From Desulfosarcina ovata subsp. ovata (lineage in GTDB: Bacteria > Desulfobacterota > Desulfobacteria > Desulfobacterales > Desulfosarcinaceae), in assembly GCF_009689005.1 (NCBI RefSeq), contig NZ_AP021879.1, positions 3,162,001 through 3,226,000 of the forward strand: a DNA stretch of 64,000 nucleotides, read 5' to 3'. The notes beneath the pieces are model-generated. The model worked only from the letters and a program-made list of their open reading frames with translations. It ran no database searches and had not been told where the DNA came from. This document shows positions 17,105 through 34,635 of the stretch, one piece after another. The position numbers were made by a program, and so were the translations under genes. Within the stretch, counting starts at the first letter, position 1. Each line of letters begins with the position of its first letter.

Positions 17105-17120
17105 CGGGATGGCAATGCCG

Positions 17121-17318
17121 TCATCCGTCCACTGCCACAAGGGACACGCCAAGCTTGGCCTCGACCGCCTGGACTTTCTGCAGCTGATCCTCGCTGAGTG
17201 TCGACGGTTTCAGGTCGTGGCACTTGAAGGCAAGCAGGGTCTTGCCCAGGTCCTTTTCCAGGTCGGTGATGCTTTTTAAGGTGGCTTCGTTCATGGTGGT
17301 GTCAAGGGAACATAACAT
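17121..17318 (-). CDS. Small hypothetical protein
   Basis: 65 residues from ATG 17318; GAGGAGG lies 9 nt upstream on the minus strand, supporting this start. The sequence is mostly helical and charged (EATLKSITDLEKDLGKTLL, LSEDQLQKVQAVEAKLGVSLVAVD), with one Cys-His pair. I do not recognise a family. A good ribosome-binding site and protein-like composition argue that it is real. It is followed by the MITE-like element and preceded by the PAS-LuxR gene 116 nt upstream. Confidence 0.6.
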   Translation of the reverse strand: MLCSLDTTMNEATLKSITDLEKDLGKTLLAFKCHDLKPSTLSEDQLQKVQAVEAKLGVSLVAVDG

Positions 17319-17433
17319 GGCTGGGTCCTCCTCGGGTTTGGGTTAAGGATCGGTGAGTATGGATCAAATCTAATCCAACCGGGGAAAGAGGGCAATATTG
17401 GCGGATTGACGGGTCACTGACGGGCAAAACCCA

Positions 17434-19188: not shown

Positions 19189-20250
19189 TCAGGGCGACAT
19201 GGAAAGGATCGAATGGGTTTCGCTATCGCCTTCAGGATACTGCTTTTGGGCGGCGTTATCGCAATTCCATCGCCAAATGGTTCGATACAGCCGGCAGACC
19301 AGCATCCGCTCGTTTTGGCGGTTATAGTGGATCCGGCTGGGACAATCCCCCGGACAGATTGCTTCAAGCGCACAACCGGCACAGGCCGTCTGCCGGGGCT
19401 TTGTTTCGTGCAGGGCGGCAAGCCGCGGGTACTGCGGCTGCCAGACGGTACCTGCGGCGAATCGTGCGTCCCCCATGGTCTGCCCGCAGGGATAAACGTC
19501 CCCTCCGGGATCGACGGCCATACTTTCGCCGACGCACGCGTGGCAAAAAACAGGCCTTTTGCGCCGCGCCCGAAGCAGTTCCTGTTCCCGCAGCCGAATG
19601 GGAATTCGCCGACGCTGGTTGACGGCAGTCAACGCCGCCAGCATGCTGTGGATCCCGGTTTCCAACACCTGCGGATCGGCGGGCATGGCGACGCCGCCTT
19701 GACCGGCGCGGCCTTTGCCGACCAAGAGATCCAGGCCGACACCCCGGACGCAACCAAACCCCGCCAGGGTCAACACCAAACGGTCCAGGGTTGCGGCGCT
19801 GGCCTGGGTGACCACGGTGGTGACCCGGAAAGGAATGCCGGCACCTTCCAACTGCTGTAACCCGCGCAAGGTCTCGGCAGCCATCCCACGCTGCTGCTGG
19901 TGGATCGCAGGCGGGCCGTCCAGGCTGACCCCGATTTGAAAATTATATGTTTTGAACAGCGTCAGCAAATCCGGCGTAAGGCACGTGGCATTGGTTTGAA
20001 TTCCCAGGCTGCGGCATCGGCCGGTCTTCCGTGCCAGAATGGCAGCCTTTTCGATGGACAACGGAACCAGGGTAGGCTCGCCACCGGTAAGCTGAAGATG
20101 AAATGGTTTCTGGGATGACGCCTGGCCGATGGCCTGCCGCATCACGGCTTCAGGCATGTCCGTTTCGCTATTTCCGTCACCGTTGTAGCAATAGGCACAA
20201 CGCAGGTTACAGCGGTGGGTCAATGCAAGAATAAGATAACGGATGGCCAT
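19189..20250 (-). CDS. Radical SAM/SPASM domain protein
   Basis: 353 residues from ATG 20250 (MAIRYLILALTHRCNLRCAYCYN). The CxxxCxxC radical SAM motif is at residues 14-21; LTGGEPTL follows. The C-terminal SPASM-type auxiliary cluster region shows FCHACVGESMAVDPGGDVYPCGQ and ACAGCALEAICPGDCPSR. Such enzymes modify peptides or proteins or make cofactors by radical chemistry in the cytoplasm. No candidate precursor peptide with repeated motifs was seen beside it; the DUF2889 protein downstream is the only close partner. It reads away from the neighbouring B12-riboswitch operon, so a link to cobalt metabolism is not shown. Confidence 0.88.
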   Translation of the reverse strand: MAIRYLILALTHRCNLRCAYCYNGDGNSETDMPEAVMRQAIGQASSQKPFHLQLTGGEPTLVPLSIEKAAILARKTGRCRSLGIQTNATCLTPDLLTLFKTYNFQIGVSLDGPPAIHQQQRGMAAETLRGLQQLEGAGIPFRVTTVVTQASAATLDRLVLTLAGFGCVRGVGLDLLVGKGRAGQGGVAMPADPQVLETGIHSMLAALTAVNQRRRIPIRLREQELLRARRKRPVFCHACVGESMAVDPGGDVYPCGQTMGDARFAAGTVWQPQYPRLAALHETKPRQTACAGCALEAICPGDCPSRIHYNRQNERMLVCRLYRTIWRWNCDNAAQKQYPEGDSETHSILSMSP

Positions 20251-20390
20251 GATAAACAATGAAAGTATACTGATTGGTGTTGGCTGGTATGCATAGCCGG
20301 AGAAAGGCAGGTTGTCAACACCGGCGTGATGGTTCTTCACGGTGTTTTTTTCTAACGGCATAAGCACTCATTCACTTTCAAACGCGCTGT
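20251..20390. other. Intergenic region with a plus-strand terminator-like hairpin
   Basis: AACACCG ... CGGTGTT followed by a run of T (about 20317-20350) reads as an intrinsic terminator on the plus strand although no intact plus gene lies upstream. It is probably left over from the deleted receptor gene whose fragment follows, or protects the module A promoter from read-through. Confidence 0.4.
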
Positions 20391-20523: not shown

Positions 20524-20549
20524 TTGACAATTCCCAAAAGTCTCGAATA
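20524..20549 (+). promoter_or_regulatory. Predicted promoter of module A
   Basis: A consensus -35 TTGACA (20524-20529) lies 18 bp upstream of CTCGAATA (20542-20549), which occupies the -10 region. The same TTGACA-N12-CTCGAATA arrangement occurs before the module B riboswitch (35259) and, with 17-bp spacing, before the cbiK riboswitch (minus, 53847). Confidence 0.6.
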
Positions 20550-20629
20550 CAAAGTAGTGTTTTAAATTTTTGACAGGCAATCAACGCTTGGCTGCCTCAT
20601 AGCATTCGCAATGCAAAAAAAATAATCAA

Positions 20630-20812
20630 GGGCGTCCATCAGGACTTAATAGGGAATCCCGTGCAAATCGGGAGTGGACCCGCCGCTGTAACATCCATGT
20701 TTTCAGCCCATGCTGGGAACAACGCTGTTGGCCAAGACGCCACTGTTCGATTTTTCTCGAGCGGGAAGGCGGCCAATAGCCGGGTGAAACCAGAAGACCT
20801 GCCTTTGATCGA
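20630..20812 (+). ncRNA. Cobalamin riboswitch 1
   Basis: Conserved B12-box core elements appear in order: GGGAATCCCGTG, AATCGGGAGTGGACCCGCCGCTGTAA (in two pieces around 20645-20690), GCCACTG (~20740), GGGAAGGC and finally CAGAAGACCTGCC. It is followed by GGTAAAAC ... GTGTTTTAC, a putative antiterminator/switch helix, and an intrinsic terminator. Coenzyme B12 binding should switch off module A. Closely similar to riboswitch 2, including the switch helix. Confidence 0.95.
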
Positions 20813-20884
20813 TCGGTAAAACCCAACGTGGAGGATGGTGTTTTACTTACCCTACAGTTGTTCGGTTCGGGATAAAAAACGGTA

Positions 20885-20919
20885 TCCCCGCGCTTTAACA
20901 GGCGCGGGGATTTTTTTTT
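20885..20919 (+). terminator. Riboswitch-controlled intrinsic terminator
   Basis: TCCCCGCGC (20885-20893) pairs with GCGCGGGGA (20902-20910) and is followed by nine T. It lies 15 nt before the first start codon of module A, so it is the expression platform of riboswitch 1. Confidence 0.92.
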
Positions 20920-20933
20920 GGGAGAACGAGAAT

Positions 20934-21971
20934 ATGAAAACACTCAGCGCGATCGTATTGGCCGTGGCCGTTTTTATGGGTGCCCCTGACATCAGCTTTG
21001 CCGACAGCACCGTGCCCGTCGCTTACTGGAAACTGTTGGATGAGGAGCGCTACATCCATCGCTTCGATCTGGAGCGTTTCGGCTGGCGGACAATTCGGAA
21101 CATTCGCCGGCAGAACATGGATGCCGGCAAGAAGACCAAGTTTCTGACGCTTAATGCCCTGCCCCCTTCAGGCAATATCGGCGACATGCGAAAACTCGAT
21201 GGGCAGTACCTGGTGCAGGCCAGTATCCTGGTACGCGATCCCAACGGGGATATCTCCCAGATCCCCGCCATGACCGCAGAAAAAGACAGCATAGGCCTTC
21301 CCGAAGACAACATGCTCATGGGGCGGTATCTGCTCGGCGCCCGAATTCCCTTAGGAGAGCACGATGTGGACGCCGACGGCATCAGCGAGTCCGTCTTTCT
21401 GTGCGCCAAGCATCTGGTCGTTCATCGTAGACATGGCGGACGGATGGGACACGCCTCAGTGGTCTTTTTCGATGATGGCGGGAAGATGCCCCTCGAAATC
21501 GGCCCGGCCATCAACACGGCCAAATCAAAATTCGGAGGCGGCATGCAGATTCCCCACGAGACGTATGAAATGATGGTCAAATACCAGGGTCGCCCCCTGC
21601 CTGGAGCAGCCGTCACGGTAACCACCGAAGGCAGCCAATGGGAAAAGACCTTCATCACCGACAAGGCCGGCAAATTCGCAATCATGCCCACCGATGACCG
21701 TTTTTCCCGGCGTGAATGGCAAAACTACCTTTACACGGCCACTCATCTCGATCGCCAAACGCACACTTACTATGTCGCCACCCTGCCCACGGTTGTCTAT
21801 AGGAACCAACCCGAATGGCGCTCCAAGGCCATGGGGTTCGCCTTCTGGTCCATCATCGGCACCGGTGTCACCCTACTGATGGTGGCCGGCCTGACCCGCC
21901 GACGCCGGCGCCGGGACCGTCAGGCGCTGATCGTCTTCGAAAATCACAGAATTCAAAGGGATCTGCCATGA
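20934..21971 (+). CDS. Exported protein with carboxypeptidase-regulatory-like domain and C-terminal membrane anchor
   Basis: 345 residues from ATG 20934 (GGGAGAACGAG upstream). Signal peptide at 1-23 (AVAVFMGAPDISFADS). The central part has calcium-like DVDADGISES and, at about 210-270, a Greek-key region (YQGRPLPGAAVTVTTEG.....TDKAGKFAIMPTD) as in DUF4198/NikL-type proteins. A single TM helix near 315-335 precedes an Arg-rich tail. The build (signal, periplasmic beta domain, C-terminal TM) parallels CbiL/NikL accessory proteins of cobalt/nickel ECF transporters, so a periplasmic metal- or cofactor-handling role is inferred. First gene under riboswitch 1; overlaps the next by 4 nt. Confidence 0.8.
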   Translation: MKTLSAIVLAVAVFMGAPDISFADSTVPVAYWKLLDEERYIHRFDLERFGWRTIRNIRRQNMDAGKKTKFLTLNALPPSGNIGDMRKLDGQYLVQASILVRDPNGDISQIPAMTAEKDSIGLPEDNMLMGRYLLGARIPLGEHDVDADGISESVFLCAKHLVVHRRHGGRMGHASVVFFDDGGKMPLEIGPAINTAKSKFGGGMQIPHETYEMMVKYQGRPLPGAAVTVTTEGSQWEKTFITDKAGKFAIMPTDDRFSRREWQNYLYTATHLDRQTHTYYVATLPTVVYRNQPEWRSKAMGFAFWSIIGTGVTLLMVAGLTRRRRRRDRQALIVFENHRIQRDLP

Positions 21972-22936
21972 AGATATCCACCCTGCGATGGACCATCCTG
22001 ACCGCCGCCTTTGTCATCCTGCTTTTCGGCGCCTATGGTGGGTTGTACTTTGGTTATTTCCTGCCGACTTTCTCCTGCTGCTGGGTGCGCGCCCGGGCCG
22101 GCACCTGCTTCATGCTGACCCTGCAACGGACGCTGGGCATGTTCACCTGGGAAAGTATGTTCATTCTACTCAAGCAGTTTATTTTCTTCTCGCTTCTGGT
22201 GATTCTCCTCGGCCGGGCATGGTGCGGTTGGCTTTGCCCGCTGGGTTTTGTTCAGGACCTGCTCGACCGTCTGAGGCAAGCCGTGGGCTTGGGGTATGTC
22301 CGCTTTTCGGAGAAGCTGCGCGGCGGTCTGGCGTGGATCAAGTGGGCCTTTCTCGCGGTTGCCGTTCTCCTGCCCATATGGGTCGCCTTTCCGGTGATGT
22401 GCCCGGCCGTGGCCCTGGGGCTGCAAATACCCTTCTGCCAGCTTTGCCCTGGCAAGTACATCCTGCCCTTATGCGTGGGCAACCCCGACCGGATATCGGT
22501 CAATTATGAGAATGGCACCCATGTGGTAATGTCCATCTTGGGGTTGACTTTTTCGATGGTCGCCCTGCTCGGGGCACTGATCAAGCGCCGCTTCTGGTGC
22601 GGCTTTTGCCCCCTGGGCCTGATTCTGGGGTGGTACCGCAAAATCAGTTTCATCAAACTCAAGAAAAATGACGCCGCCTGCACCCGCTGCGAAATCTGCT
22701 ACAACGTCTGTCCCTCGGAAATCACGGAAGTTTTTCGCTCCCAGGGGAAAACGGATGTCACCACGGCCGAGTGCATGCTGTGCCTGAAATGCGTCGAAAA
22801 CTGCCCCGAGGAAGGCGCGCTGAAAGCCACCTACCTGGGCAAGACTATTTACCGGTCCTCACCCGGCAAATTTTTTATCAAACGCGGCGTTAATTTGACA
22901 CCCACTGAATCTGAAGGAGGTATGGGAAACAAATGA
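21968..22936 (+). CDS. NapH-like membrane ferredoxin (4Fe-4S polyferredoxin)
   Basis: 322 residues from ATG 21968. Four to five TM helices; two CxxCP-type motifs at the membrane face (GRAWCGWLCPLGF, RRFWCGFCPLGLI) as in NapH/CcoG proteins; then two classic 4Fe-4S motifs near the C terminus (CTRCEICYNVCP and CMLCLKCVENCP). This protein would pass electrons from the quinone pool or a periplasmic donor to a cytoplasmic acceptor. Together with the downstream activase, which needs a low-potential ferredoxin, it may be the dedicated electron donor (inference). ATGA overlaps couple it to the genes on both sides. Confidence 0.9.
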   Translation: MKISTLRWTILTAAFVILLFGAYGGLYFGYFLPTFSCCWVRARAGTCFMLTLQRTLGMFTWESMFILLKQFIFFSLLVILLGRAWCGWLCPLGFVQDLLDRLRQAVGLGYVRFSEKLRGGLAWIKWAFLAVAVLLPIWVAFPVMCPAVALGLQIPFCQLCPGKYILPLCVGNPDRISVNYENGTHVVMSILGLTFSMVALLGALIKRRFWCGFCPLGLILGWYRKISFIKLKKNDAACTRCEICYNVCPSEITEVFRSQGKTDVTTAECMLCLKCVENCPEEGALKATYLGKTIYRSSPGKFFIKRGVNLTPTESEGGMGNK

Positions 22937-24681
22937 GACATGGGAAATGGTGTATTCTGCTCAAACTGGTAATATCGGCGGTAATGCTCAATGCGGTGAG
23001 TGTCTTTACCTGTCTGGCGGAGGATGGGCAAACCACGGTACAACAACTCGAAGAAATGGTGGTCCATGGCAGCGACATCAACCCCGGCATTTCAATGCAG
23101 CCTGGCAAGACAACCATCGAACTTGACGAATTCTCGGTCATCGGAGACACCGACAATGTAATGGATGTGTTGAAAACCCAGGCGGTGGTCGATTTTAGAG
23201 GCGAAAACGATCTCGACCCCGGGGTTGACAGCATTTATTTACGCGGCTTTGAGAGCTATCGCTTCGTGACGGCGTTGGATGGGGTGACCATTCAGCGTAC
23301 CGGCGGCAACGGCGGCAGCAATCTCGTCGACTACGCCACGCTACCGCCATTTTTGATTGACCGGGTCGAGATTATCCCTGGGCCGCATTCGGCCATGGTT
23401 GACGCCAAGGCCATTGGCGGTGCCATCAATTTTGTCAGCAAGGCGCCACAAACTACGGAAAGCCTTAAGCCGGATCTCATTGTCAAAGGCGGCTACCGCA
23501 CGTACAACACGATGAACAGCACCCTGTCGGCACAAGGCGCGGTCTCAAAGGTCAGCTACGACCTAGCTTACCGTAAATACCGCACGGACGGCTACCTGCG
23601 CAACAGTGCCAGCGACATGGACACCGTCTACGGCCGTTTAGGCCTCGTGCTGCCGCAGGACGGCTTTATCACCCTTGGTGCTTCTTACTCGGATGCGGAC
23701 CGCGAACGGCCGGTCAACAATCCTGCTAAAGACGGCAGTGACTACGATCCCGACTATCCCGTAACCAGCGGTACCTCCCTTGACCCGGGCCAGAATCCAA
23801 CCTGGGATAGCCTTTCCTACAACTACCGTCTCAATTACCAGCAAGCGCTGCCCATCGGCCGTATCAACCTGGGTGCCTTTTACGGCAAAGCCAACCGGGA
23901 TCGGTACTATACCAGCGGCACCAAACTTGTTCATTATGACACACACTGGTGGCAGCAGGGCGGTAAGATCACCGACACGGTGGGTTGGACGGCCAATCAC
24001 ACGACGACGTTGGGCTTTGATTACGCACTGATGCACGATGATCTCATTGAAGATGAGAAGACCAAGCGCATTGACAAGCAGGGCAGCTTTTTGCAGCACC
24101 AGTGGCGCATCCGGCCCTGGCTGAATCTCAAACTGGGGGTGCGCTATGAAGATTTGAACGTCTGGATGAGCGGTAACGACCAAATTTATGAACGTCATTT
24201 TGCCGAATTGATCCCCAAGTCTTTTGTAACCTGGGATTTGGGCGTATTGGCCGCCTGGCTGCACGACACCTCCCTGTCGGCTGGCGTAAGCAAAATCTGG
24301 CATGCCCCGGATGCTCAGTTCATTTATCGCGGCCGAAGCAGGGTCGGTAAAGATCTGGAGCCCGAACATGGCATGGGCTATGACCTGATCCTCAGCCGCC
24401 GATTGTGGCACGATGTTGCCATCAAGATCGATTACTCTTTTTATGAAATCAAAGACTATTTTGTCAGCGCCACCAACGTGGACAAGGTCCACCGCAACGG
24501 CGTGGATGTGGAGCTGAACGGTCACATTATTGATCCGCTATCTTTTTATCTGACCTATGCCTGGCAGGATTTCAAGCACAAGGGCGATGACAAGAACCTG
24601 TTCGACGAATCCTATCTGAATGCGACAGGCTATCCGGCCATTGACCGGACTTATGGTGTTGGCTTGAGCTTCAAATTGTAG
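22933..24681 (+). CDS. TonB-dependent outer-membrane receptor
   Basis: 582 residues; GAAGGAGGT lies 10 nt before ATG 22933. Signal peptide 1-30. The plug domain (~35-165) has IYLRGFESYRFVTALDGVTIQ and GPHSAMVDAKAIGGAINFVSK; the rest is a beta-barrel with many aromatic-rich strands, ending in GVGLSFKL. Regulation by a cobalamin riboswitch points to a corrinoid or cobalt-chelate ligand. It is shorter than BtuB-type receptors in this window (658 and 689). TonB/ExbBD genes are not present nearby. Confidence 0.92.
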   Translation: MRHGKWCILLKLVISAVMLNAVSVFTCLAEDGQTTVQQLEEMVVHGSDINPGISMQPGKTTIELDEFSVIGDTDNVMDVLKTQAVVDFRGENDLDPGVDSIYLRGFESYRFVTALDGVTIQRTGGNGGSNLVDYATLPPFLIDRVEIIPGPHSAMVDAKAIGGAINFVSKAPQTTESLKPDLIVKGGYRTYNTMNSTLSAQGAVSKVSYDLAYRKYRTDGYLRNSASDMDTVYGRLGLVLPQDGFITLGASYSDADRERPVNNPAKDGSDYDPDYPVTSGTSLDPGQNPTWDSLSYNYRLNYQQALPIGRINLGAFYGKANRDRYYTSGTKLVHYDTHWWQQGGKITDTVGWTANHTTTLGFDYALMHDDLIEDEKTKRIDKQGSFLQHQWRIRPWLNLKLGVRYEDLNVWMSGNDQIYERHFAELIPKSFVTWDLGVLAAWLHDTSLSAGVSKIWHAPDAQFIYRGRSRVGKDLEPEHGMGYDLILSRRLWHDVAIKIDYSFYEIKDYFVSATNVDKVHRNGVDVELNGHIIDPLSFYLTYAWQDFKHKGDDKNLFDESYLNATGYPAIDRTYGVGLSFKL

Positions 24682-24769
24682 TTGCGATTGATTCGGCTAA
24701 GAAAGCGGGCCCATCGAACCAATCATAAACGGTCCCTTTCCAATAACCCTTTTGCCCAAGGTGAGCAAA

Positions 24770-26086
24770 ATGAAAATCAGTGATATGGTGGCCAAACGGA
24801 CCCGACGTCTGCTGAAAGGTGTCGCCCGCAGCGCCGCCGTCGAACTGGAACGGTTGCGCTCGATCCCCGGCACACCGGAGGAATTGAACTTTTTCTACGA
24901 TGTGCTGGAAGCGGCTTATGTACGCAACGATCCTGCGCCGATGCTGGATGCGCGGCCGGACAAAGACCTGTTTGTGGGCGTTTACTGCATGGTGGTTCCC
25001 GAGGAGCTGATCTATGCCGCCGGCGCGATTCCGGTACGGTTGTGCGCGGGATGCTTCGAGTCCTCCCAGATCGGCGAGGACCGGGTGCCCAGGGACGGTT
25101 GCCCCCTGGTGAAATCATCCATGGGCCTGTCCATGCAAAAGGGGCTCAAGGTTTTCGACCTGTGCGACATAGTGGCCATTCCCACGACCTGCGATGCCAA
25201 GCGCAAACTGGGCGAAGAACTCTCGGCATTCAAGGAAGTCTGGATGATCGAGACTCCCCACATCAAAGATGCCGACTTCTCGCGGCGCATCTGGATGGAG
25301 CAGATGTACGCCCTGAAGGCAAAACTTGAAACCGTCAAACGCAACGGAACCCGGGGCAAGCGGATCAATGCGCGGCGCATGGCCGCCGCCATCCAGGACA
25401 CGGCCCGTGCCCAAGCGGAAATGCGGCGTCTGCTCTCGTTAAGATCCGCCGAAAAGCCGCTTATCTGGGGCCGACAGGCCACCGCCGTGGTCAACGCCTT
25501 TGCCTACGCGCATGTCAACCGGTGGACCGAAGCCGTTACACGGCTGAACAACCGGTTGGCAGCCATGGCCGAAAACGATCAGCCAATGGCGGACAGCGGG
25601 CGACCGCGCATCTATATTGCCGGCAGCCCCTCGCTCTTTCCCAATCTCAAAATCCCCACCCTGGTGGAGGAGATGGGCGGTGTGGTCGTGGCCGACGAGT
25701 CCTGTGCCGGCGACCGCTACCTGTATGACCCGGTGGGCAGCACGGAAAAAAATCTCAACGACCAGATGCTCGGCGTGGCCTCCCGCTACCTGGCCCCGTG
25801 CGTTTGCCCATCCTTCACCCCCAACGACGATCGGCTGACCCTGATCCAGCGCATGATAACCGACTTTGCCGTGGACGGGGTGTTGTACCATGTACTCAAG
25901 GGGTGCGTTGTCTATGATTTCGAAGTCAACCGAGTCGAAAACGCGCTACGGAACAATCAGATCCCGTTGTTGCGTGTCGAAACCGACTACAACCCTGAAG
26001 ACGTGGAACAGCTTAGGACACGCATCGAGGCATTTATCGAAATGCTCAAATCCAAACGCAGCCGCACGAAACAGGCGGTCTCGTAG
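24770..26086 (+). CDS. 2-hydroxyacyl-CoA dehydratase/benzoyl-CoA reductase-type protein (HgdB/BzdN fold, double-cubane-cluster-like)
   Basis: 438 residues from ATG 24770, preceded by AAGGTGAG; an upstream TTG is less likely. The HgdB-family pattern is clear: YCMVVPEELIYAAGAIPVRLCAGC, DGCPLVKSSMG, DLCDIVAIPTTCDAKRK, ESCAGDRYLYDPV, APCVCPSFTPNDDR, VDGVLYHVLKGCVVYDFE. Cluster-ligand candidates are these conserved Cys. True dehydratases and benzoyl-CoA reductases need two different subunits of this fold; only one is present, with its activase, as in double-cubane cluster proteins (DCCP), which reduce small molecules rather than acyl-CoA. In a B12-regulated operon, a corrinoid or cobalt-tetrapyrrole substrate is the obvious candidate (inference). 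Confidence 0.85.
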   Translation: MKISDMVAKRTRRLLKGVARSAAVELERLRSIPGTPEELNFFYDVLEAAYVRNDPAPMLDARPDKDLFVGVYCMVVPEELIYAAGAIPVRLCAGCFESSQIGEDRVPRDGCPLVKSSMGLSMQKGLKVFDLCDIVAIPTTCDAKRKLGEELSAFKEVWMIETPHIKDADFSRRIWMEQMYALKAKLETVKRNGTRGKRINARRMAAAIQDTARAQAEMRRLLSLRSAEKPLIWGRQATAVVNAFAYAHVNRWTEAVTRLNNRLAAMAENDQPMADSGRPRIYIAGSPSLFPNLKIPTLVEEMGGVVVADESCAGDRYLYDPVGSTEKNLNDQMLGVASRYLAPCVCPSFTPNDDRLTLIQRMITDFAVDGVLYHVLKGCVVYDFEVNRVENALRNNQIPLLRVETDYNPEDVEQLRTRIEAFIEMLKSKRSRTKQAVS

Positions 26087-26100
26087 ATGAGGAAAATAAA

Positions 26101-26892
26101 ATGAGCCAAACCTACTTCGCCGGCATTGACGCCGGTTCCACCTATGTCAAAGCCGCATTAATGGACGAAAACCAGGCCCTGGTGGCCTTTGACCAGCGAC
26201 CGACCGGCATTGACGCCGACGGAACATCGCAAAAGATGATCGCGGCCATGGCCGAGGCCAACGGCATTCCTGCGGATCACATCCAAAATATCATCGCCAC
26301 CGGCTACAGCCGGCGCATCATCAGCATGGCCAGGGACACGGTAACGGAAATCAAGGCCCATGCCCGCGGCGCGGCCTGGTCCGCCCCTAATAGCATCGGT
26401 ATCCGCACGGTGATCGACATCGGCGGGCAGGACAGCAAGGTCATCGTCCTGGACGGCGACAATGAAATCCTCAATTTCGCCATGAATGACAAGTGTGCGG
26501 CCGGAACCGGCCGTTTTCTCGAATCCCTGGCCCGGGTGCTGGAGCTGGACATCAGTGAACTGGGCCCCCTCTCCCTTCAATCGAACATGCCACTTAGCAT
26601 CAACAGCACCTGCGTGGTGTTTGCCGAGTCGGAGGTGGTTTCCCTGGTGGCCCGTAAAAAGAAACGCGAGGATATCGTCGCCGGCATCCATCACTCCCTG
26701 GCCAAACGCATCGCGGCCATGGCCCGCAAGGCAGGCGCACAACCAGGGATTCTTCTTACTGGCGGTGGTGGACGCAACGCCGGTATCGCCAGTGCTCTCG
26801 ACGAGGCCCTTTTGATGGACATCCATGTGCCGGAATACCCCCAGCTCAACGGCGCCTTGGGCGCGGCATTGATTGGAATGACTGAAGACTGA
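26101..26892 (+). CDS. ATP-dependent [4Fe-4S] activase (HgdC/BadF/DCCP-reductase type)
   Basis: 263 residues, 14 nt after the HgdB-type gene. ASKHA ATPase fold: phosphate loops FAGIDAGSTYVKAALMD and DIGGQDSKVIVLDGD, adenosine motif LLTGGGGRNAGI. The two cluster Cys of the homodimer are present in NDKCAAGTGRFLE and NSTCVVFAESEVVS. Family knowledge: such proteins ('archerases') couple ATP hydrolysis to injecting a low-potential electron from ferredoxin into an HgdB-type partner. Here it pairs with the single HgdB-type protein and probably takes electrons from the NapH-like ferredoxin encoded three genes upstream (inference). Confidence 0.93.
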   Translation: MSQTYFAGIDAGSTYVKAALMDENQALVAFDQRPTGIDADGTSQKMIAAMAEANGIPADHIQNIIATGYSRRIISMARDTVTEIKAHARGAAWSAPNSIGIRTVIDIGGQDSKVIVLDGDNEILNFAMNDKCAAGTGRFLESLARVLELDISELGPLSLQSNMPLSINSTCVVFAESEVVSLVARKKKREDIVAGIHHSLAKRIAAMARKAGAQPGILLTGGGGRNAGIASALDEALLMDIHVPEYPQLNGALGAALIGMTED

Positions 26893-26970
26893 CGCGGATG
26901 CCAGGTCCGGCTTTACCAAGGGATCGCGAAAGGCGGAGAGCTCGGCGAGTATGGCCGTTCAGTTGTCATC

Positions 26971-27256
26971 GTTAGGAGAGAGCTTTTTTGAAGTCGCCGT
27001 CCTGGTGGTGACCGCCCATCTTCCCGTGATGATCATCGAGGGCATTATCACTGCATTTTGTGTTGGATTTTTCAAAAAAGTCAAACCGGTTTAACATCGT
27101 GCTTTTTCTGGTGCTGCCCATTACCTTATAGGGAACCATCGCGTTTTTTCTGGGGCCTTTGGCATGCACCCGGGAAGGTCTGCTCCTGGCGGCCCAGATC
27201 ACCCTCAAATCCAATGCCATTCTCATGGTTTTTATCGCCTTGGTCGCAACCATGTC
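26971..27256 (+). pseudogene. Fused remnants of cbiM (3' end) and cbiQ (middle)
   Basis: From 26971 (GAGAGCTTTTTTGAAGTCGC) to ~27085 the DNA matches the last ~100 bp of cbiM at 36085-36190; from ~27090 to 27256 it matches the centre of cbiQ at 37150-37305 and even more closely module C at 51830-51935. A deletion joins the two at ~27088, and a TAG stop interrupts the cbiQ part (ACCTTATAG near 27125). The cobN start follows at once. This shows that a cbiM-cbiL-cbiQ set once lay upstream of cobN here. Confidence 0.9.
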
Positions 27257-27269
27257 CAAGGAGAAACCA

Positions 27270-30200
27270 ATGAATCGAGAAAAGTGCTATGTGGAATTGA
27301 AAAACCAAAATCGGAAGAAAGATAGCCCCCCATTGAAACTCGTCTACTTCAGTGTCACCTCCAATGAAATCCCCAACCTGAGCGAAGCCGCCAGGCTGTT
27401 TGTCGAAAATGTCGCCGCGCTTGACATATTCGCCCGCACGCGCACCCAGCTCGAGAACAACCCGGAACGTCAGGCTGAATTCGTGCGCCGGGCCCTGGCG
27501 GCCGATGCCGTGATCATCACCCTCATGGCCGGGAGTCACTCCTGCCCGGCCTGGGAGGCACTGACCGAAGCTCTTTCCGATCGGCGTGATCAAAAACGCC
27601 CCCTTCCCTACCTGCATATCCAGCCCACCGGCAGCAATCCGGACACCCTGACTTTGGTTCAGAAGCATTCCGACGGCCATGACGATGATGCCTGGCAAAC
27701 CCTGAGCCGTTACTACCGTTATGGCGGAGTCGACAACCTGGGCAACCTGCTGCGCTTTCTCTACCGGCGGGCATGCGGCGGTAGTGTTGCGGTCACGGCG
27801 CCCCGTCAGCCGCCCTACGAGGGGTTGTATCATCCGGACCACGGCCATATCTGTGATGCCGACGCTTACCGATCGGCCCTGGACCCTGCCAAACCCACCG
27901 TGGGCATCTGGTTTTACCAGAATTTCTGGACCAGCAACAACAAAGCGCATATCGATGCCATGGTCCGGGAGGTGGAATCCCAGGGGGCCAACGTGATCTG
28001 CGTCTTTCACATGCGTTTCAAGGACACGGTACTGGGCAACCAGGGGCCCGATTACGTGGTCAAGCACTTTTTCATGAACGATGGCCGGCCGGTCATCGAT
28101 GTGCTCGTCAATCCGGTGATGTTCAGTTTGCAGACAGCGGCACCGGAATACAAAGGCTTACTGGCGCGTCTGAACGTACCGGTCATCCAGGCGATCTCAA
28201 CGGGTCGCAGTATTGCCGAATGGGAGGCCAGCGACCAGGGCCTCAACAATGTGGATATCACCATCAGCGTGGCCCAGCCCGAGTTGGACGGGGTGATCAT
28301 CAACGTGCCGGTGGCCTCCAAACAGTGTGTGGACATCGACCCCCTGACCGGCGCGGCGGTCAACAAATACGTCGCCATTCCCGAACGCATGGCCCGGATG
28401 GTGCGTCTATCGCTGAACTGGGCACGCTTAAGGCGCAAACCCAACGCCGAGAAAAAGGTCGCCATTGTGTTCCACCACTACCCGCCGCGCAATGACCGCA
28501 TCGGTTGCGCCGCGGGACTGGACTCCTTTGCCAGCGTGGTGGATCTGCTCGGCGCCATGAAAAAACAGGGATACCGTGTCGACACCGACTACCCCGATGG
28601 CGACGCCCTGGCCCACCATCTTTTGGCCGGCATGACCTGTGACCGGCGCTGGCTGCCCATGGACCAGATGGCCACGCGTGCCCGGGCCTCGGCCGGCCCC
28701 GGGACATACACCGGCTGGCATGAAAAGCTGCCCCAAACGGTACGCGAGAAGATGACCCACGATTGGCAGCCCATACCCGGCGATCTGTTCGTCCACGACG
28801 GGCGCCTTTTCTTCCCCGGGCTGATCAACGGCCATGTGTTTCTCACCATCCAGCCGCCCCGGGGATATTTCGAGCAACTGGACAAACTCTATCACGATCC
28901 GCACCTGTCGCCGCCCCACCACTACCTGGCCCACTACCGCTGGATCACGGAGACCTTCGGCGCCGATGCCGTGATTCACGTGGGCAAGCACGGCAGCCTG
29001 GAGTGGCTGCCGGGAAAAGCCGTGGGCCTGTCCGCGACCTGCTACCCGGATCTGGCCATCGGTGATCTGCCCAACATCTACCCTTACATCATCAACGATC
29101 CCGGCGAAGGCACCCAGGCCAAACGCCGGTCTTACGCCTGCATCATTGATCACCTGCCCCCGCCGTTGACCAACGCCGGGCTTTACGAAGATCTGGCAGA
29201 AGTGGAAAACCTGCTGTCGGAATATCAGGCGGCCAGGATCCAGGATCAGGGCAAACTCGATCTGCTCGCCCCGATGATCTGGGAAGCGGCCGAAAAAGCG
29301 GAAATCACCGGCGAGTTGAATCTTGATCAAACCACCGCCTTGGGCGACATGGAGACGTTTCTGGAAACATTGCACCATTACCTGGGCGAAATTGCCGACA
29401 CGGCCATTGCCGACGGCCTGCATATCCTTGGCCGGGCACCGGTCGGGCAGCCCCTGGTTCGCACCCTGGTGCAGATGACCCGCCTGGCCAACGGCGAGGT
29501 GCCGCCCCTGCGCCGGGCCGTTGCCGCCGCCCTGGGCCATGACGCGGATTTTCTCACCCAACACCGTGGCCGGGTCATCGATACCGCCTCCGGCGCCACG
29601 GGCGCCCAGCTTTTGGACAGGGCGCACCATCTGTGTGAAGCCCTGGTGGCCGATCTGCTGGCCGGCAGCCATGATCCGGACGTGGTGACAACCGTTCAGC
29701 AGCGCCACCTGGGCAAAGCCACCCCCGATATTACGGACGCGTTGGCCTTCATCCGCGATGACCTCCTGCCCCGCGTGGAGCAGACATCTGGCGAGCAGAC
29801 CGCCTGCCTGGATGCCCTGGCAGGTCGCTTCGTGCCGCCCGGCCCGTCGGGCGCGCCCAGCCGGGGCCAGGCCCATATTTTGCCCACGGGCCGCAACTTC
29901 TACTCCGTCGACCCCCAGAAGATTCCGACAAAGGCGGCCTGGGAGACCGGCAAACGGCTCGCCGATGCCCTGATCGACAAGTACCGGGAGGAGCATGACC
30001 GCTATCCCGACAATGTGGGGCTGATCCTGTGGGCCAGCCCCACCATGCGTTCAAAAGGCGACGATGTGGCCGAAATTCTCTACCTGCTGGGTGTGCGTCC
30101 GGTATGGCAGAAGGGATCGGGCAATGTGCGCGGTGTGGAAATCATTCCCGCGGCGGAATTGGGTCGGCCGCGCATCGACGTGACGCCGCGCATTTCCGGC

Positions 30201-31100
30201 ATCTTCCGCGACGCCTTTCCCCTGCTGGTGGATTTGATCGATACCGCCGTTCAAATGGTGGCGGCCCTGGAGGAAAAACCGGAGCATAATTTCATCCGCC
30301 GGCATGTCATCCGGGACGTCGCGGATCTCACCGCCGACGGCCTGGATGAGACCGCCGCCTTCCGCCAGGCCACCTTCCGCATCTTCGGGTCGCCGCCGGG
30401 CAGCTATGGCGCCGGCGTGGCTCAACTGGTGGAGTCCAAGCAGTGGAAAACCACCGACGATCTGGGTGAGATGTATATCCGCTGGTCGTCTTACGCCTAT
30501 GGCCGGGACACCTTTGGTCAGCCGGCCGAATCCGTTTTCCGGCGGACCCTGGGGCGCATGTCGGTCACGGTCAAGAACGAGGACACCCGTGAAAAGGACA
30601 TGCTGGCCTGCACCGATTTTTACAACTACCACGGCGGCCTGGTCACCGCCGTGCATGCGGTTCAGGGCCGGCGGCCCCTATCCCTGGCCGGCGACAGCGC
30701 GGATCCCGATCAGGTGGTCGTCCGCACCACCACCGAGGAGACCCGGCACATCTTCCGCGCCCGCCTGCTCAATCCCAAATGGCTGGAAGGTCTCAAGCGC
30801 CACGGCTACAAGGGGGCCGGTGATATCTCCAAGGCCATGGATATCATCATCGGCTGGGACGCCACCGCCGACGTGGTGGATGACCACATGTACCGGCGGT
30901 TCGCCGAAAAAGTACCCCTGAACCCGGAAATGGCCGCCTGGATGAAAAAGGTCAACCCCCACGCCCTGCACAACATCATCGACAAGCTGCTGGAAGCTGC
31001 CGGCCGTGGCATGTGGAACGCCGATGAGGATACCCTGGAAGCCTTGCGCGATGCGTATCTGGATGCGGAGGGGGAGATCGAGGAGGTTACTGATCGCTAA
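27270..31100 (+). CDS. cobN: Cobaltochelatase large subunit CobN
   Basis: 1276 residues from ATG 27270 with AAGGAG 6 nt upstream; the frame is open further upstream only because of the cbiQ remnant. CobN/BchH superfamily throughout: PTVGIWFYQNF, VAIVFHHYPPRNDRIGCAAGLDSF, YHDPHLSPPHHYLAHYRW, ADAVIHVGKHGSLEWLPGKAVGLS, GRNFYSVDP, GLILWASPTMRSKGDDVAEIL, DVTPRISGIFRDAFP, IFGSPPGSYGAG, LNPKWLEGLKRHGYKGAGDIS. CobN inserts cobalt into a corrin/sirohydrochlorin-type ring with ATPase partners CobS/CobT or ChlI/ChlD; none is encoded in the window. Last gene of module A; its 3' end overlaps the convergent PepSY gene by 14 bp. Confidence 0.93.
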   Translation: MNREKCYVELKNQNRKKDSPPLKLVYFSVTSNEIPNLSEAARLFVENVAALDIFARTRTQLENNPERQAEFVRRALAADAVIITLMAGSHSCPAWEALTEALSDRRDQKRPLPYLHIQPTGSNPDTLTLVQKHSDGHDDDAWQTLSRYYRYGGVDNLGNLLRFLYRRACGGSVAVTAPRQPPYEGLYHPDHGHICDADAYRSALDPAKPTVGIWFYQNFWTSNNKAHIDAMVREVESQGANVICVFHMRFKDTVLGNQGPDYVVKHFFMNDGRPVIDVLVNPVMFSLQTAAPEYKGLLARLNVPVIQAISTGRSIAEWEASDQGLNNVDITISVAQPELDGVIINVPVASKQCVDIDPLTGAAVNKYVAIPERMARMVRLSLNWARLRRKPNAEKKVAIVFHHYPPRNDRIGCAAGLDSFASVVDLLGAMKKQGYRVDTDYPDGDALAHHLLAGMTCDRRWLPMDQMATRARASAGPGTYTGWHEKLPQTVREKMTHDWQPIPGDLFVHDGRLFFPGLINGHVFLTIQPPRGYFEQLDKLYHDPHLSPPHHYLAHYRWITETFGADAVIHVGKHGSLEWLPGKAVGLSATCYPDLAIGDLPNIYPYIINDPGEGTQAKRRSYACIIDHLPPPLTNAGLYEDLAEVENLLSEYQAARIQDQGKLDLLAPMIWEAAEKAEITGELNLDQTTALGDMETFLETLHHYLGEIADTAIADGLHILGRAPVGQPLVRTLVQMTRLANGEVPPLRRAVAAALGHDADFLTQHRGRVIDTASGATGAQLLDRAHHLCEALVADLLAGSHDPDVVTTVQQRHLGKATPDITDALAFIRDDLLPRVEQTSGEQTACLDALAGRFVPPGPSGAPSRGQAHILPTGRNFYSVDPQKIPTKAAWETGKRLADALIDKYREEHDRYPDNVGLILWASPTMRSKGDDVAEILYLLGVRPVWQKGSGNVRGVEIIPAAELGRPRIDVTPRISGIFRDAFPLLVDLIDTAVQMVAALEEKPEHNFIRRHVIRDVADLTADGLDETAAFRQATFRIFGSPPGSYGAGVAQLVESKQWKTTDDLGEMYIRWSSYAYGRDTFGQPAESVFRRTLGRMSVTVKNEDTREKDMLACTDFYNYHGGLVTAVHAVQGRRPLSLAGDSADPDQVVVRTTTEETRHIFRARLLNPKWLEGLKRHGYKGAGDISKAMDIIIGWDATADVVDDHMYRRFAEKVPLNPEMAAWMKKVNPHALHNIIDKLLEAAGRGMWNADEDTLEALRDAYLDAEGEIEEVTDR

Positions 31101-32547
31101 TCGGTGAGTAAAGACCGGTTATTACCAACCCAGCTCCACCGGATAGAAAAAACAACATCAGTCCATCCCGCATAAGACGGTGCCGCAATAAGAACGGAAT
31201 ATCCAGACAGTGTGGGAATCGGTAAAGCCATCGATTGAGCCGTGCGGAAGCATCATACCGTCTGGCGATGGTGCCGTCGTGCATGTCGATATAGAACAGG
31301 GTATGCGCCGGGTCGTCGAATGTGAGCCTCACCACCGGGAGCCGCAGTTGTCGTTTCTTGTCAACGTAATAGCGGTCGTATGTAGTCAAGATACGATGGT
31401 CGATCGGTTGATGCCCCGTCACGAGCCCCTGTGATGCAGCCAAGATATCTTCCAGGGAAAAACAGGCGATGGGGGAATGTCCAGACGCATCGGCCCGAAT
31501 CAGGAACGATTCGGATGGTGATGTCCAGCACCGATAATAGGTTGTTCCCCTGAAGTACAACAGATCCATTTGACGAACGATATCGTGCGCCTGACTTGTG
31601 TTCAAGGCTTTGGCTGGATGCAATGCGAACCGGGTTGGATCGATGTCCCCGCCTGATAACGCCAAGGTTTCCTCACTCTTTGGTGCCGTGTTACTGTGCC
31701 AGTTAAATGGAGACAGGGACATCATGCCTGAAAACACCCACAGCAGCGTCGTCAGGCCAAAGACCAATCCCAGGTAATGGTGCCATTTTCTGATCCCGAT
31801 AAACAGGCTGGATCTTTTGTAACGGCGACGTCCATATCCTTTCCAGCGGAAGCCAGCAACCCCGATCCACAACCCCAGCAGCACCGCCAGTGTAGCTATC
31901 GCTGAAAGCCAGATAATTACCTGCCGCCATAGTTCCAGATGTTTGCGCAGAACTGTGAAATACAGCCAGTGTGGAATCGATCCCAACCAAACCAGGCCGC
32001 GTTCTTGTTTTGTGACGACCTGGCAGACTTCTCCACTGGTCTTCGACACATACACCCAGGTGGCATCCTCATCCCGGCAGCACAATTTGTACAAGGGCCG
32101 GTACCAGACACCAGTGGCCGTACCGACGGTCCACTGATCCACGCCGTTCAAAGAGCGAATCTCGGCGACATCGATCGTTTTGCCTAAATAGTGGGATGCG
32201 GATTTTATGGCAGACTCGGGCGAAATAGTATCCAATATCGAACCGTCGTCAGCATAAACGACGTTCCGACGGCTTTCTTTCGTACGAAAAAAATAGGCCG
32301 GCCTGTCAATAAGCATATTGAGCCGGGCCTCTATCGGAGGTTCGGACAAACCGGTTTTCGCCCATGCTTCCCGAAAATCGATGGCAATCGTGTCAGCAAT
32401 CAAAGGTGCAGTCCGGGGCAGTCGATCCCGTGAGGTTCGGTGAAACCTCGGATGATCGACATACATCATCACAATTCCGGACAGAAACCATAGGATCATC
32501 AGCGGACCGGTTGTAAGTCCCAGGATTTTATGTGCTTTGCGAAGCAT
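31087..32547 (-). CDS. PepSY-domain transmembrane protein, putative inner-membrane reductase
   Basis: 486 residues from ATG 32547 (AAGGG 6 nt upstream; ATG 32553 is an alternative). An N-terminal TM helix (HKILGLTTGPLMILWFLSGIVMMYV), two further TM helices near 215-240 and 265-290, and a C-terminal one (GLMLFFLSGGAGLVITGLY) frame periplasmic PepSY segments (DTISPESAIKSASHYLG, VYVSKTSGEV; EDILAASQGL, FYIDMHDGTIAR). PepSY_TM proteins such as FoxB/PiuB accompany TonB receptors and are implicated in reducing imported metal chelates. It lies downstream of a riboswitch-controlled TonB receptor on the same strand, so a role in reductive release of a cobalt ligand is inferred. Confidence 0.85.
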   Translation of the reverse strand: MLRKAHKILGLTTGPLMILWFLSGIVMMYVDHPRFHRTSRDRLPRTAPLIADTIAIDFREAWAKTGLSEPPIEARLNMLIDRPAYFFRTKESRRNVVYADDGSILDTISPESAIKSASHYLGKTIDVAEIRSLNGVDQWTVGTATGVWYRPLYKLCCRDEDATWVYVSKTSGEVCQVVTKQERGLVWLGSIPHWLYFTVLRKHLELWRQVIIWLSAIATLAVLLGLWIGVAGFRWKGYGRRRYKRSSLFIGIRKWHHYLGLVFGLTTLLWVFSGMMSLSPFNWHSNTAPKSEETLALSGGDIDPTRFALHPAKALNTSQAHDIVRQMDLLYFRGTTYYRCWTSPSESFLIRADASGHSPIACFSLEDILAASQGLVTGHQPIDHRILTTYDRYYVDKKRQLRLPVVRLTFDDPAHTLFYIDMHDGTIARRYDASARLNRWLYRFPHCLDIPFLLRHRLMRDGLMLFFLSGGAGLVITGLYSPISDQ

Positions 32548-32578
32548 ACACATCCCTTTGGCAATAAAACGTCAAACT

Positions 32579-32606
32579 GGCGTGCAGTCCTTTCGGCCTG
32601 CACGCC
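32579..32606 (-). other. Hairpin between receptor and PepSY genes
   Basis: GGCGTGCAG and CTGCACGCC form a 9-bp GC-rich stem in the 105-nt gap. No T-run follows on the minus strand, so it more likely stabilises or processes the upstream receptor mRNA than terminates it. Confidence 0.5.
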
Positions 32607-32658
32607 GGGTCTGCCAACTCAAAGGTTGTAACGTCGAGTCAATTATTACTGAATCGAT

Positions 32659-34635
32659 CTAAAAATCATATGTGTAGCTGAGCATCAGCGCCAGCGGAGT
32701 GCCCTGGTATTCATAAATAAAGGGTTCACCATCCGAACCGGTGGTTCTCCCGTACCCATATGTGGTATAATCTTTGTCGAAAAGGTTATCCACGCGAAGG
32801 GTCAGCGTATGGGCCAGATCGTTTCCGAAACGGACAAAGCCCGAGATGTCCGTGACCCAGTACTTCCCGTAATTGACGGCCCCGAATTCCGGGTAGTCGG
32901 TGCCGTAAACGTCGCCAATATAGCGAACGGAAAGATCCCCGCCGAACCGGCGGGAGGGATGCCAGTAGCGCAGCAATCCTTTGTAGAAGGATTCGGGGAT
33001 ATGGGTCAATTGAACATCGTCATCTTTGTTGGTCGCATCCGTGTAAACCGCGCTTAGAACGAAACTGAAACCTTTATAGGGTTGCGATGAAAGGCTGATT
33101 GCCCAACTCTCCAAATCCGTTTCACCATCGGTATTCTCGAAAACCAGGTCGTCACCCACGGCAATCATGTCTGTGATTTCTGAATAGTAGTAATCAACTG
33201 CAGCCGTAAAAAGGCCGAAGGTAGCCCCGAGCCCCGCTTCGACATTTAAGCTTTCTTCGGGATCCAAGTCCGGATTGCCGATGGCATAATCTTCGTCGGC
33301 ATAAAGCTCATAGGCGTTGGCCAGCCGGAAATTCGTACCCACTACAGCTCTCGCGAAAAACGGCCCGAAAATCGGTGATCGCGCACTTGCATTCCATACA
33401 AAGCTGTCGCTTCCTCCCGTCTGATTATAACGGCCGCCAAGGGACATTTTCAGGTCGGGAATAAAATTGAAGTGCGGGCGAAGGGCAAAAAAACCGGCGT
33501 ATACTTCCTCGTGATCACCCTTGATGACAACAACCTCGTCTTTTCCCCAGTAATTCTGGTAATCAAAGCCCAGCAACAGCTCGTTTTCTTCGAGAAAGAA
33601 CCAGCTTCCCATCAGATTGACACCCCAATCTTCATATCCCCACAAGGCTTCGTTGTAAACAAACGTGCCGTCGAGTTCTTGCCGGGTGTATTCGGTCCAC
33701 CACTCGTGATAATAGGCTTTAACGTAGTAGGATAAATCTTCTGCAATATCGTGATCCCATTTTAGAATACCCACATATTCGGTCCGATCGTTTACCGCCT
33801 TGTCTTCGTCGACTCTCATGAAATCGGCTTCCGCTTCGTTTCGCAGGATTGAACCCCGCAAGACCGCCCCGTTTCCCCAATCGACGTTTCTCTCGTACTT
33901 GGCCAACAGGCTATTTCTTATGTAACCGCGATCTTTTCGGGCAGCCCCTTCGATATGATCGTAATCTTCGTCACAAAAAGTCTGATACCCCTCCCATGCA
34001 TCGTAGGATCCGTAAATCAGAAACCCGTTTTCGTTGATGGTTTCCGAGAGGTACCCATGGGCTTCGGCGGCATCATAACTCCCATATCCGGCCCCCAGGC
34101 TTCCATGTCGTTCTTTGGTGACCGGTTTGGTGATGATGTTGATCACGCCTGATGTGCCGTCTGTGCCGTAATACAGCCCCTCACCGGTCTTTAACACCTC
34201 AATCCTGTCGATCATCTTCACGGAAAGGGTGTCCAGATAGCCCCTCCCGTAAAGCCGGTTGTTGATCCGGACGCCGTCGATCAGGAAAATCACCCGCTTG
34301 GTGTCCCCTCCGTTCATACTCATACGCATATAGTCACCGCGACCGCTTTTTGAAGATACATAGAGACCCGGCACCAGGCTTTCCAATATCTGGTTGACAT
34401 CAGCATATCCTCCGGCGGTTATCTCTTCACCGGTGACGATTTCCACCTTGTGACCGAACTCCTCCAGTTCGCCCGACAGGCGTTCCTCTATTTTCCTCCC
34501 CTCGACAACCATTTCTTCGAGCTCTTGCGTCTCCGAAAAAGATAGGGCCAAACAGGCAGGCATCATAACAAGAACAAGAGTGCCGTACAAAAAAAGTCGT
34601 AACATGAATTTCATCGATCGCGTGTTTCCAACCAT
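32659..34635 (-). CDS. TonB-dependent receptor, BtuB-like (cobalamin-riboswitch controlled)
   Basis: 658 residues from ATG 34635; GGAGGAG lies 5 nt upstream. Signal peptide 1-31. TonB box-like ELEEMVVEG, plug with DVNQILESLVPGLYVSS, RGDYMRMSMNGGDTKRVIFLIDGVRINN and IEVLKTGEGLYYGTDGTSGVINIIT; a 22-strand type barrel follows, ending TLALMLSYTYDF with the C-terminal Phe needed for outer-membrane insertion. Riboswitch control and the 105-nt spacing to the PepSY gene indicate a corrinoid or cobalt-chelate uptake unit. Confidence 0.93.
   Translation of the reverse strand: MVGNTRSMKFMLRLFLYGTLVLVMMPACLALSFSETQELEEMVVEGRKIEERLSGELEEFGHKVEIVTGEEITAGGYADVNQILESLVPGLYVSSKSGRGDYMRMSMNGGDTKRVIFLIDGVRINNRLYGRGYLDTLSVKMIDRIEVLKTGEGLYYGTDGTSGVINIITKPVTKERHGSLGAGYGSYDAAEAHGYLSETINENGFLIYGSYDAWEGYQTFCDEDYDHIEGAARKDRGYIRNSLLAKYERNVDWGNGAVLRGSILRNEAEADFMRVDEDKAVNDRTEYVGILKWDHDIAEDLSYYVKAYYHEWWTEYTRQELDGTFVYNEALWGYEDWGVNLMGSWFFLEENELLLGFDYQNYWGKDEVVVIKGDHEEVYAGFFALRPHFNFIPDLKMSLGGRYNQTGGSDSFVWNASARSPIFGPFFARAVVGTNFRLANAYELYADEDYAIGNPDLDPEESLNVEAGLGATFGLFTAAVDYYYSEITDMIAVGDDLVFENTDGETDLESWAISLSSQPYKGFSFVLSAVYTDATNKDDDVQLTHIPESFYKGLLRYWHPSRRFGGDLSVRYIGDVYGTDYPEFGAVNYGKYWVTDISGFVRFGNDLAHTLTLRVDNLFDKDYTTYGYGRTTGSDGEPFIYEYQGTPLALMLSYTYDF

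Follow-up and report, generated by a model that had tools for sequence, protein, structure and literature searches.

A stretch of 64,000 nucleotides of Desulfosarcina ovata subsp. ovata (NZ_AP021879.1, positions 3,162,001-3,226,000, forward strand), hereafter the window, to which all coordinates refer unless another locus is named, was analysed, and an operon led by a cobalamin riboswitch was characterized at positions 20524-31100. It encodes an exported protein, a NapH-like membrane ferredoxin, a TonB-dependent receptor and an HgdB-type protein with its HgdC-type activase ATPase, and cobN follows. The type of the module, a double-cubane-kind HgdB protein with an activase, and its riboswitch are well supported. 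The reading that we favour, tentatively and with a confidence just short of even, is that of a low-potential reductase module, driven by ATP and repressible by B12, that serves cobalt acquisition, with cobalt as the acceptor in the B12-linked clade; the acceptor (the cobalt of a corrinoid or of a chelate), the direction of the electrons and the coupling to CobN are what we infer.

The HgdB-type protein and its activase

The HgdB-type protein is a full-length HGD-D protein (PF06050, 304.3 bits, model positions 1-342 of 342). Its best solved relative was the double-cubane cluster protein (DCCP) 6ENO/7YYL, which we take to originate from Carboxydothermus, with 201 bits and E 2.2e-58, and weaker matches were obtained with BzdN (77 bits) and with the beta subunit of 2-hydroxyacyl-CoA dehydratase (56 bits). 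The [8Fe-9S] cluster ligands of BzdN, given as C36/73/100/263/293/327 in the consulted part of PMC11971306, align with C79/117/147/318/352/385 of the window protein; all six are kept, and they are invariant in 17 of 17 aligned relatives. With the NCBIfam double-cubane model NF040772 the protein scored 336.7 bits and did not reach the cut-off of 350, for which reason it is termed of the double-cubane kind and was not filed as an equivalog.

The activase passed the cut-off of TIGR00241 (244.7 against 125.4 bits) and contains two cysteines, in NDKCAAGTGRF and INSTCVVFAES, at the positions found in known activases, where they are presumably the cluster ligands. Activases spend ATP to push electrons into their HGD-D partners. 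A gene for a second HGD-D subunit was sought among the open reading frames of the window operon and none was found; four other HGD-D genes were found in the host genome, all of them about 80 kb or more away. Because of this missing second subunit and of the double-cubane cysteine set, identity as an acyl-CoA dehydratase or benzoyl-CoA reductase is disfavoured, and the acyl-CoA substrate that the initial annotation had named as the competing possibility is made unlikely. Double-cubane proteins reduce small molecules, and their biological function is stated as unknown in the part consulted of a paper on benzoyl-CoA reductase (PMC11971306).

The riboswitch and its recurrence at related loci

The leader of the operon scored above the gathering score of RF00174 and is followed by an expression platform (Table 1), the terminator stem of which is the longest listed; terminator-like sites across the region as a whole were not enriched (11, against a shuffle mean of 12.2). 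The initial annotation had placed a riboswitch with terminator ahead of genes for a CbiL-like exported protein, a NapH-like protein, a TonB receptor, an HgdB-type protein, an activase and cobN, and this order and these families were confirmed, with 4-bp overlaps among the first three genes and the aptamer beginning at 20613, not at 20524. Intergenic gaps from the first gene through cobN are -4, -4, 70, 14 and 377 bp, and owing to the last of these the co-transcription of cobN with the module is not demonstrated.

At E <1e-145 the HgdB subfamily was found in 11 of 389 genomes of the host class, host included, the four best candidates per genome being scored; the next matches were one at 2.2e-126 (G041, kept as a distant member) and then generic double-cubane proteins at 2.8e-118 and weaker. 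A phylum scan with the single HgdB protein (E up to 1e-75) gave 6 of 395 genomes, host included. At E up to 1e-120 the subfamily was present in 2 of 324 genomes of the phylum of L056 and in 2 of 398 of the Bacillota, the phylum of L055, the genomes of these two loci included and the second match in the Bacillota being at 1.6e-121. One scan of named genomes yielded 10 loci. Duplicates (L148 = L047, L118 = L049, L145 = L051, and L150, which overlaps L053) were excluded, and 25 distinct loci were counted, namely the window, L036, L037, L047-L061, L146, L147, L149, L151-L153 and L186. Partner genes were scored by tblastn at E 1e-8 in stretches of 3 to 64 kb, so that absences are weak.

A NapH-like gene was present in 24 of the 25 loci (not L052; that of L060 was hidden from ORF calling by a competing ORF and was recovered by tblastn) and an activase in 23 (not L056 nor L152, whose contig ends soon after HgdB), followed by TonB receptors (15/25), DsbD_2 (10/25) and CobN-type genes (3/25). 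Genes of the energy-coupling factor (ECF) type for cobalt/nickel, CbiM, CbiQ or CbiO, occur near the modules L036, L050 and L051. L036 is the paralogous module of the host (8139-17830; G000:C1, about 2.6386-2.6483 Mb), with the order NapH-HgdB-activase-DsbD_2 and then nitrogenase-like D, K and NifH-type genes. Directly before HgdB, an Omnitrophota metagenome-assembled genome (MAG; L052, 2181-4616) and a Calescamantes MAG (L054, 7593-9989) each carry a gene for a putative glycoside hydrolase of the GxGYxYP type.

A cobalamin riboswitch leads the operon in four of the 25 loci: the window, L047, G565 and L056. L047, from a Desulfobacterales MAG, has it at 4055-4238, with the module from 4385. The strongest case of the B12 link is the operon of G565, where a riboswitch at 42529-42729 is followed by 16 genes, all in the same orientation and separated by 30 bp or less, encoding in order DUF3450, a MotA/ExbB-domain protein, ExbB, ExbD, TonB, a TPR protein, CcsA-like, ResB-like, BtuF-, BtuC- and BtuD-type proteins, CobN, the exported protein, NapH-like, HgdB and activase. 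Identities to the window proteins are 56% for CobN, 51% for the exported protein, 71% for NapH-like, 66% for HgdB and 74% for the activase, and after this operon a second riboswitch leads a TonB receptor, ChlD and ChlI. In L056 (Candidatus Anammoxibacter, a planctomycete) two riboswitches lead genes of the BtuF, NapH and HgdB types and then of the BtuF, BtuC, BtuD and CbiZ types. The recurring B12 link includes operons with BtuFCD and CobN (G565) or BtuFCD and cbiZ (L056).

In the HgdB tree, with three generic DCCP sequences as comparison rows, the window, L047 and G565, the riboswitch-led cases from the Desulfobacterota, form a clade (99/97), which L048 (Desulfobulbus rhabdoformis) joins at 89/96, a node that is not starred. 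The L048 module has as neighbours a CobN 31% identical to that of the window, a protein related to the radical SAM protein of the window and a DUF4198 protein, and no riboswitch was detected in the 14 kb examined. No riboswitch was seen in the sister group of eight (L036, L049, L050, L051, L057, L058, L146 and L147). The link in L056 looks independent, since its HgdB is placed elsewhere in the tree, on a long branch that calls for caution. Riboswitch numbers per genome are small (24 in the 7.63 Mb of the host, six of them in the window by covariance search, and 5 in the 2.6 Mb of the L047 genome), and for this reason the four placements before module operons look, on an informal estimate, unlikely to be due to chance.

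Membrane and exported partners

In the exported protein a signal-like N-terminus is followed by a beta-rich domain, and a helix forms the C-terminal end. Sequence models gave no DUF4198 match and a CarboxypepD_reg match of 26.2 bits (cut-off 32.3), and its paralogue in L036 reached 30.6 bits with DUF4198 (cut-off 34). In a fold search with the predicted model (pLDDT 74.4, pTM 0.67), seven Zcp/DUF4198 entries were found at Z 16.1-17.1, the next row being at 6.6, and rows at 6.6 and below were left unused. The matched Zcp entries were solved with Co, Cu and Zn and the matched DUF4198 protein is Ni-bound; the exported protein is predicted to have this metal-binding-protein fold.

The NapH-like protein scored 78 bits with TIGR02163 (napH), for which the cut-off is 213. 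Its CxxxCP and ferredoxin cysteines are kept in 17/17 or 16/17 relatives, the exception being the short L056 frame, and four extra cysteines (37, 47, 157 and 160), two per periplasmic loop as predicted from hydropathy and charge only, are present in all 17. The TonB receptor is shorter than the proteins of NF049945, presumably a family of FCYXU motif type and possibly of selenoproteins, and it contains just two cysteines, both close to the N-terminus.

These partners would also suit a general metal-chelate reductase, in which electrons are driven outward through the NapH-like protein, with DsbD_2 where present, to reduce in the periplasm TonB-imported complexes of several metals. The riboswitch would then have been captured in some lineages only because cobalt is among those metals. 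In its favour are the frequencies of TonB receptors and DsbD_2 given above, the ECF cobalt/nickel genes, DUF4198 proteins and FeoB near modules, and the constant pair of NapH-like cysteines in each predicted periplasmic loop. The adjoining B12-riboswitch unit on the opposite strand (31087-35156, riboswitch 34947-35156) likewise couples a TonB receptor (32659-34635) with a PepSY_TM protein (31087-32553), a possible reductase, as this family includes periplasmic ferrisiderophore reductases according to the part consulted of PMC13038864. Cobalt or a corrinoid is indicated instead by the four loci that a riboswitch leads, of which two have BtuFCD, and we regard the general metal-chelate reductase as unlikely, although it is the best of the alternatives.

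CobN and its relatives

The CobN of the window passed the cut-off of TIGR02257 (998.8 against 822 bits), shows the HxGxHG motif as HVGKHG, and is also marginally above the cut-off for BchH (830.9 against 829 bits). A long TTG start at 27159 falls inside the cbiQ remnant and the likely start is ATG 27270. Matches to solved structures were 826 bits with true CobN (7c6o) and 358 bits with HmuS (9d26), so that an HmuS-type de-chelatase is less likely than CobN proper, and neither a signal peptide nor a membrane anchor was seen on inspection of the sequence. The AAA+ partners CobS/CobT or ChlI/ChlD are not among the window operon genes; ChlI/ChlD-type genes occur elsewhere in the host genome (L100/L101 and L097). 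The host encodes at least nine long CobN/ChlH/HmuS relatives, in which all three chelatase classes are represented by best solved structure (the HmuS-type relative is L106 and the ChlH-type relative is at 41260-45030), and two CbiK-type chelatases. A CbiK-type gene lies directly behind the riboswitch 53564-53759, in the unit 52333-53759 (-).

At E up to 1e-250, 21 matches to this CobN type were obtained in 17 of the 389 genomes of the host class, and the stretches around all of them were examined for neighbours. A riboswitch was present in 15 stretches (three of the six without it are contigs of <7 kb), a BtuC-type gene was beside CobN in 14 and ChlD/ChlI-type genes in 11. HgdB and activase were found in two, the window and G565, and in the two closest relatives (72%; L164 and L165) the riboswitch and CobN are present and the module is not. 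As 15 of the 21 stretches hold a riboswitch, CobN of this type is usually a B12-regulon gene, and the HgdB module is an occasional companion. The co-occurrence of the HgdB/activase pair with riboswitches and cobN that the initial annotation had proposed to look for was recovered for the riboswitch in 4/25 module loci and for CobN-type genes in 3/25. Of the ATP-driven reductive pathway proposed there for corrinoid or cobalt, what stands is a double-cubane-kind HgdB with activase under a riboswitch, a B12 link that recurs; a fixed HgdB-activase-CobN pathway is not supported, the window pair being located in a duplicated operon and 19 of the 21 CobN relatives having the neighbourhood without the pair that had been named as evidence against it. 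Nor do the counts (2/21 CobN loci, 3/25 module loci) support CobN as an obligate partner.

A reductive demetallation or ring reduction coupled to CobN, in the manner of HmuS, the pair giving electrons and CobN removing or exchanging the metal of an imported tetrapyrrole, is in our view improbable. CobN is directly beside the module in G565 and 377 bp from it in the window, a more distant CobN is beside the module of L048, the paralogous module L036 has four CobN-like genes some 12 to 50 kb away on its upstream side, and the activity of HmuS needs NADH, as reported in the consulted part of PMC12583661. The window protein is nonetheless nearest to true CobN, by the scores given above, no signal peptide was seen in it, and 19/21 loci of its type are without the module.

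Other genes recur in these neighbourhoods. A relative of the radical SAM protein at 19189-20367 (-), which gave sub-threshold matches to peptide-maturase models, is beside this CobN type in 12/21 loci. CcsA-like and ResB-like genes precede BtuF in B12-riboswitch CobN operons (L100 6736-8339, L154 41-1686, L166 15028-16631 and others), which suggests a step at the membrane that involves a tetrapyrrole or redox chemistry. Upstream of the L036 module (L096-L098), the CobN-like genes are accompanied by ChlI/ChlD-type genes and by ABC transporters of the oligopeptide type.

Duplicated operon and origin of the arrangement

The riboswitch DNA of the operon (20624-20918) is 86% identical to that before cbiM (35301-35595), and the cobN fragment behind cbiM-cbiN-cbiQ (37793-38377) shares 92.5% DNA identity with the final 585 bp of cobN. 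The gap between activase and cobN contains remnants of cbiM and cbiQ (Table 1). On the simplest reading of these identities, a riboswitch-cbiMNQ-cobN operon would have been duplicated and the module would have replaced cbiMNQ in one copy. On this reading, control by the riboswitch is a capture in the window, yet the HgdB family is riboswitch-controlled in other loci too. Two further closely similar cbiM-cbiN-cbiQ copies are located in the window (35291-38378 and 50605-52169, the second with shortened frames), and with the cobN 3' fragment these duplicates mark a recently duplicated region.

That the module is an acyl-CoA or small-molecule reductase which landed behind a riboswitch by recombination and has no role with cobalt is the least probable of the alternatives. 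The insertion inside a duplicated operon and the closest CobN relatives with riboswitch and without module speak for it; the double-cubane cysteines, an operon without a second HGD-D subunit and the presence of a riboswitch or BtuFCD at L047, G565 and L056 as well speak against it.

Table 1. Features of the operon and of its duplicated copy in the window.
Feature	Position	Strand	Evidence or remark
Cobalamin riboswitch aptamer (RF00174)	20613-20820	+	82.6 bits against gathering score 31.5, E 7.7e-19
Intrinsic terminator of the riboswitch	20884-20911	+	12 pairs, then T run; 5' of first ATG 20934
Exported, C-terminally membrane-anchored protein ('CbiL-like')	20934-21971	+	predicted Zcp/DUF4198 metal-binding-protein fold
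NapH-like membrane ferredoxin	21968-22936	+	profile matches, cysteine alignment
TonB-dependent receptor	22933-24681	+	nearest NCBIfam model NF049945, below its cut-off
HgdB-type (HGD-D) protein, double-cubane kind	24752-26086	+	PF06050; six [8Fe-9S] ligand cysteines
HgdC-type activase ATPase, two cysteines	26101-26892	+	TIGR00241
CobN, cobaltochelatase large-subunit type, intact	27270-31100	+	TIGR02257
cbiM 3'-end remnant	26978-27108	+	protein 79.6% over 49 aa; DNA 88.6% over 131 bp
cbiQ remnant, stop-interrupted	27084-27258	+	protein 84.5% over 58 aa; DNA 87% over 169 bp
Sister copy of the operon: riboswitch, cbiM, cbiN-like, cbiQ, cobN 3' fragment	35291-38378	+	

Proposed role of the module

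In the reading that we favour, a B12-repressible reductase serving cobalt acquisition, low cellular B12 would permit expression of the operon through the riboswitch, and the double-cubane protein would receive an electron from the activase at the expense of ATP. This electron would then reach the cobalt in a corrinoid or chelate taken up by the cell, the NapH-like protein probably serving as the partner in the membrane. Such a reduction could convert a Co(II) corrin into the Co(I) form that can be adenosylated or re-loaded, or it could loosen chelated cobalt and so make it available to the CbiMNQ importer and the chelatases. CobN would belong to this regulon without being a proven direct partner. 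A step at the membrane is favoured because Zcp-fold and NapH-like proteins are the usual partners, and a cytoplasmic corrinoid step is allowed because BtuFCD, CbiZ and CobN occur in the riboswitch cases. The whole of this scheme is possible but rather doubtful: an ATP-fuelled, B12-switched double-cubane reductase, partnered by a membrane ferredoxin and an exported protein that binds metal, which either reduces Co(II) to Co(I) or removes the cobalt from a corrinoid or chelate that has been imported.

Several findings weigh against cobalt as the acceptor or against a general B12 link. A riboswitch was absent from the examined stretch, in several cases a short contig, in 21 of the 25 loci (L036, L037, L048-L054, L055, L057-L061, L146, L147, L151-L153 and L186); in the whole genome of L186 the nearest riboswitch is hundreds of kb from the module, and in G582 (L147) none of the 11 riboswitches of the genome is at the module. 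No activase was found in the 21 kb examined of L056. In Ruminococcus flavefaciens (L055, 7056-14977) two HgdB-type genes are in a row with genes for a NapH-like protein extended by a DUF4198-like part, for an activase, for a protein with weak similarity to DsbD_2 and for FeoB, and because of the FeoB neighbour iron could be the metal there. The arrangement of the window is a mosaic inside a duplicated operon, and the pair is rare beside this CobN type.

No description of a B12-regulated HgdB/activase operon, and nothing on the paralogous locus L036, was found among the papers listed in searches of the open-access literature, outside which most subscription papers fall. If the favoured reading is true, a route of cobalt or corrinoid reduction unlike CobR, flavodoxin or RACE would exist, and an ATP-driven reductive step would be added to metal or vitamin acquisition in anaerobes. 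An HgdB subfamily whose partners hardly vary, and which one clade combines with genes of corrinoid uptake and a B12 switch, gives double-cubane proteins, for which no physiological role is known, a testable one, with cobalt or corrinoids as substrates.

Comparison with known systems

The module shares the HGD-D fold, the BzdN-like [8Fe-9S] ligands and an activase with BzdNO, the class I benzoyl-CoA reductase, and with the 2-hydroxyacyl-CoA dehydratases, from which it differs in that the window operon carries no gene for a second subunit and in scores of only 77 and 56 bits. Ram and RACE are single activase/ferredoxin proteins without an HGD-D protein. They reduce corrinoid proteins to Co(I) using ATP and belong to corrinoid methyltransferase systems, as described in the consulted part of PMC10418091; ATP-driven delivery of low-potential electrons is the common feature, proposed only, in the case of the window module, toward a corrinoid or cobalt.

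The window CobN resembles the large subunit of the CobN/ChlID cobaltochelatase in its TIGR02257 score and HVGKHG motif, whereas HmuS is a reductive de-chelatase of the CobN superfamily (PMC12583661, part consulted), the membrane anchor of which was not seen in the window protein, and the host has its two CbiK-type chelatases as well. CcoG, according to the part consulted of PMC7558416, is a membrane protein with two tetranuclear FeS clusters that reduces a metal ion, Cu(II). The NapH-like protein is similar to CcoG and NapH as a membrane protein with FeS clusters, and it is distinguished by its score of 78 bits against 213, by the extra predicted-periplasmic cysteines and by its activase/HgdB partner. 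With DCCP and its activase (6ENO/7YYL) the module has in common the best structure match, the kept cluster cysteines and a single HGD-D gene accompanied by an activase. The window protein is about one-third identical to generic DCCPs of relatives and is below the NF040772 cut-off, and the module differs from DCCP in its near-constant NapH-like partner and, in one clade, its B12 riboswitch.

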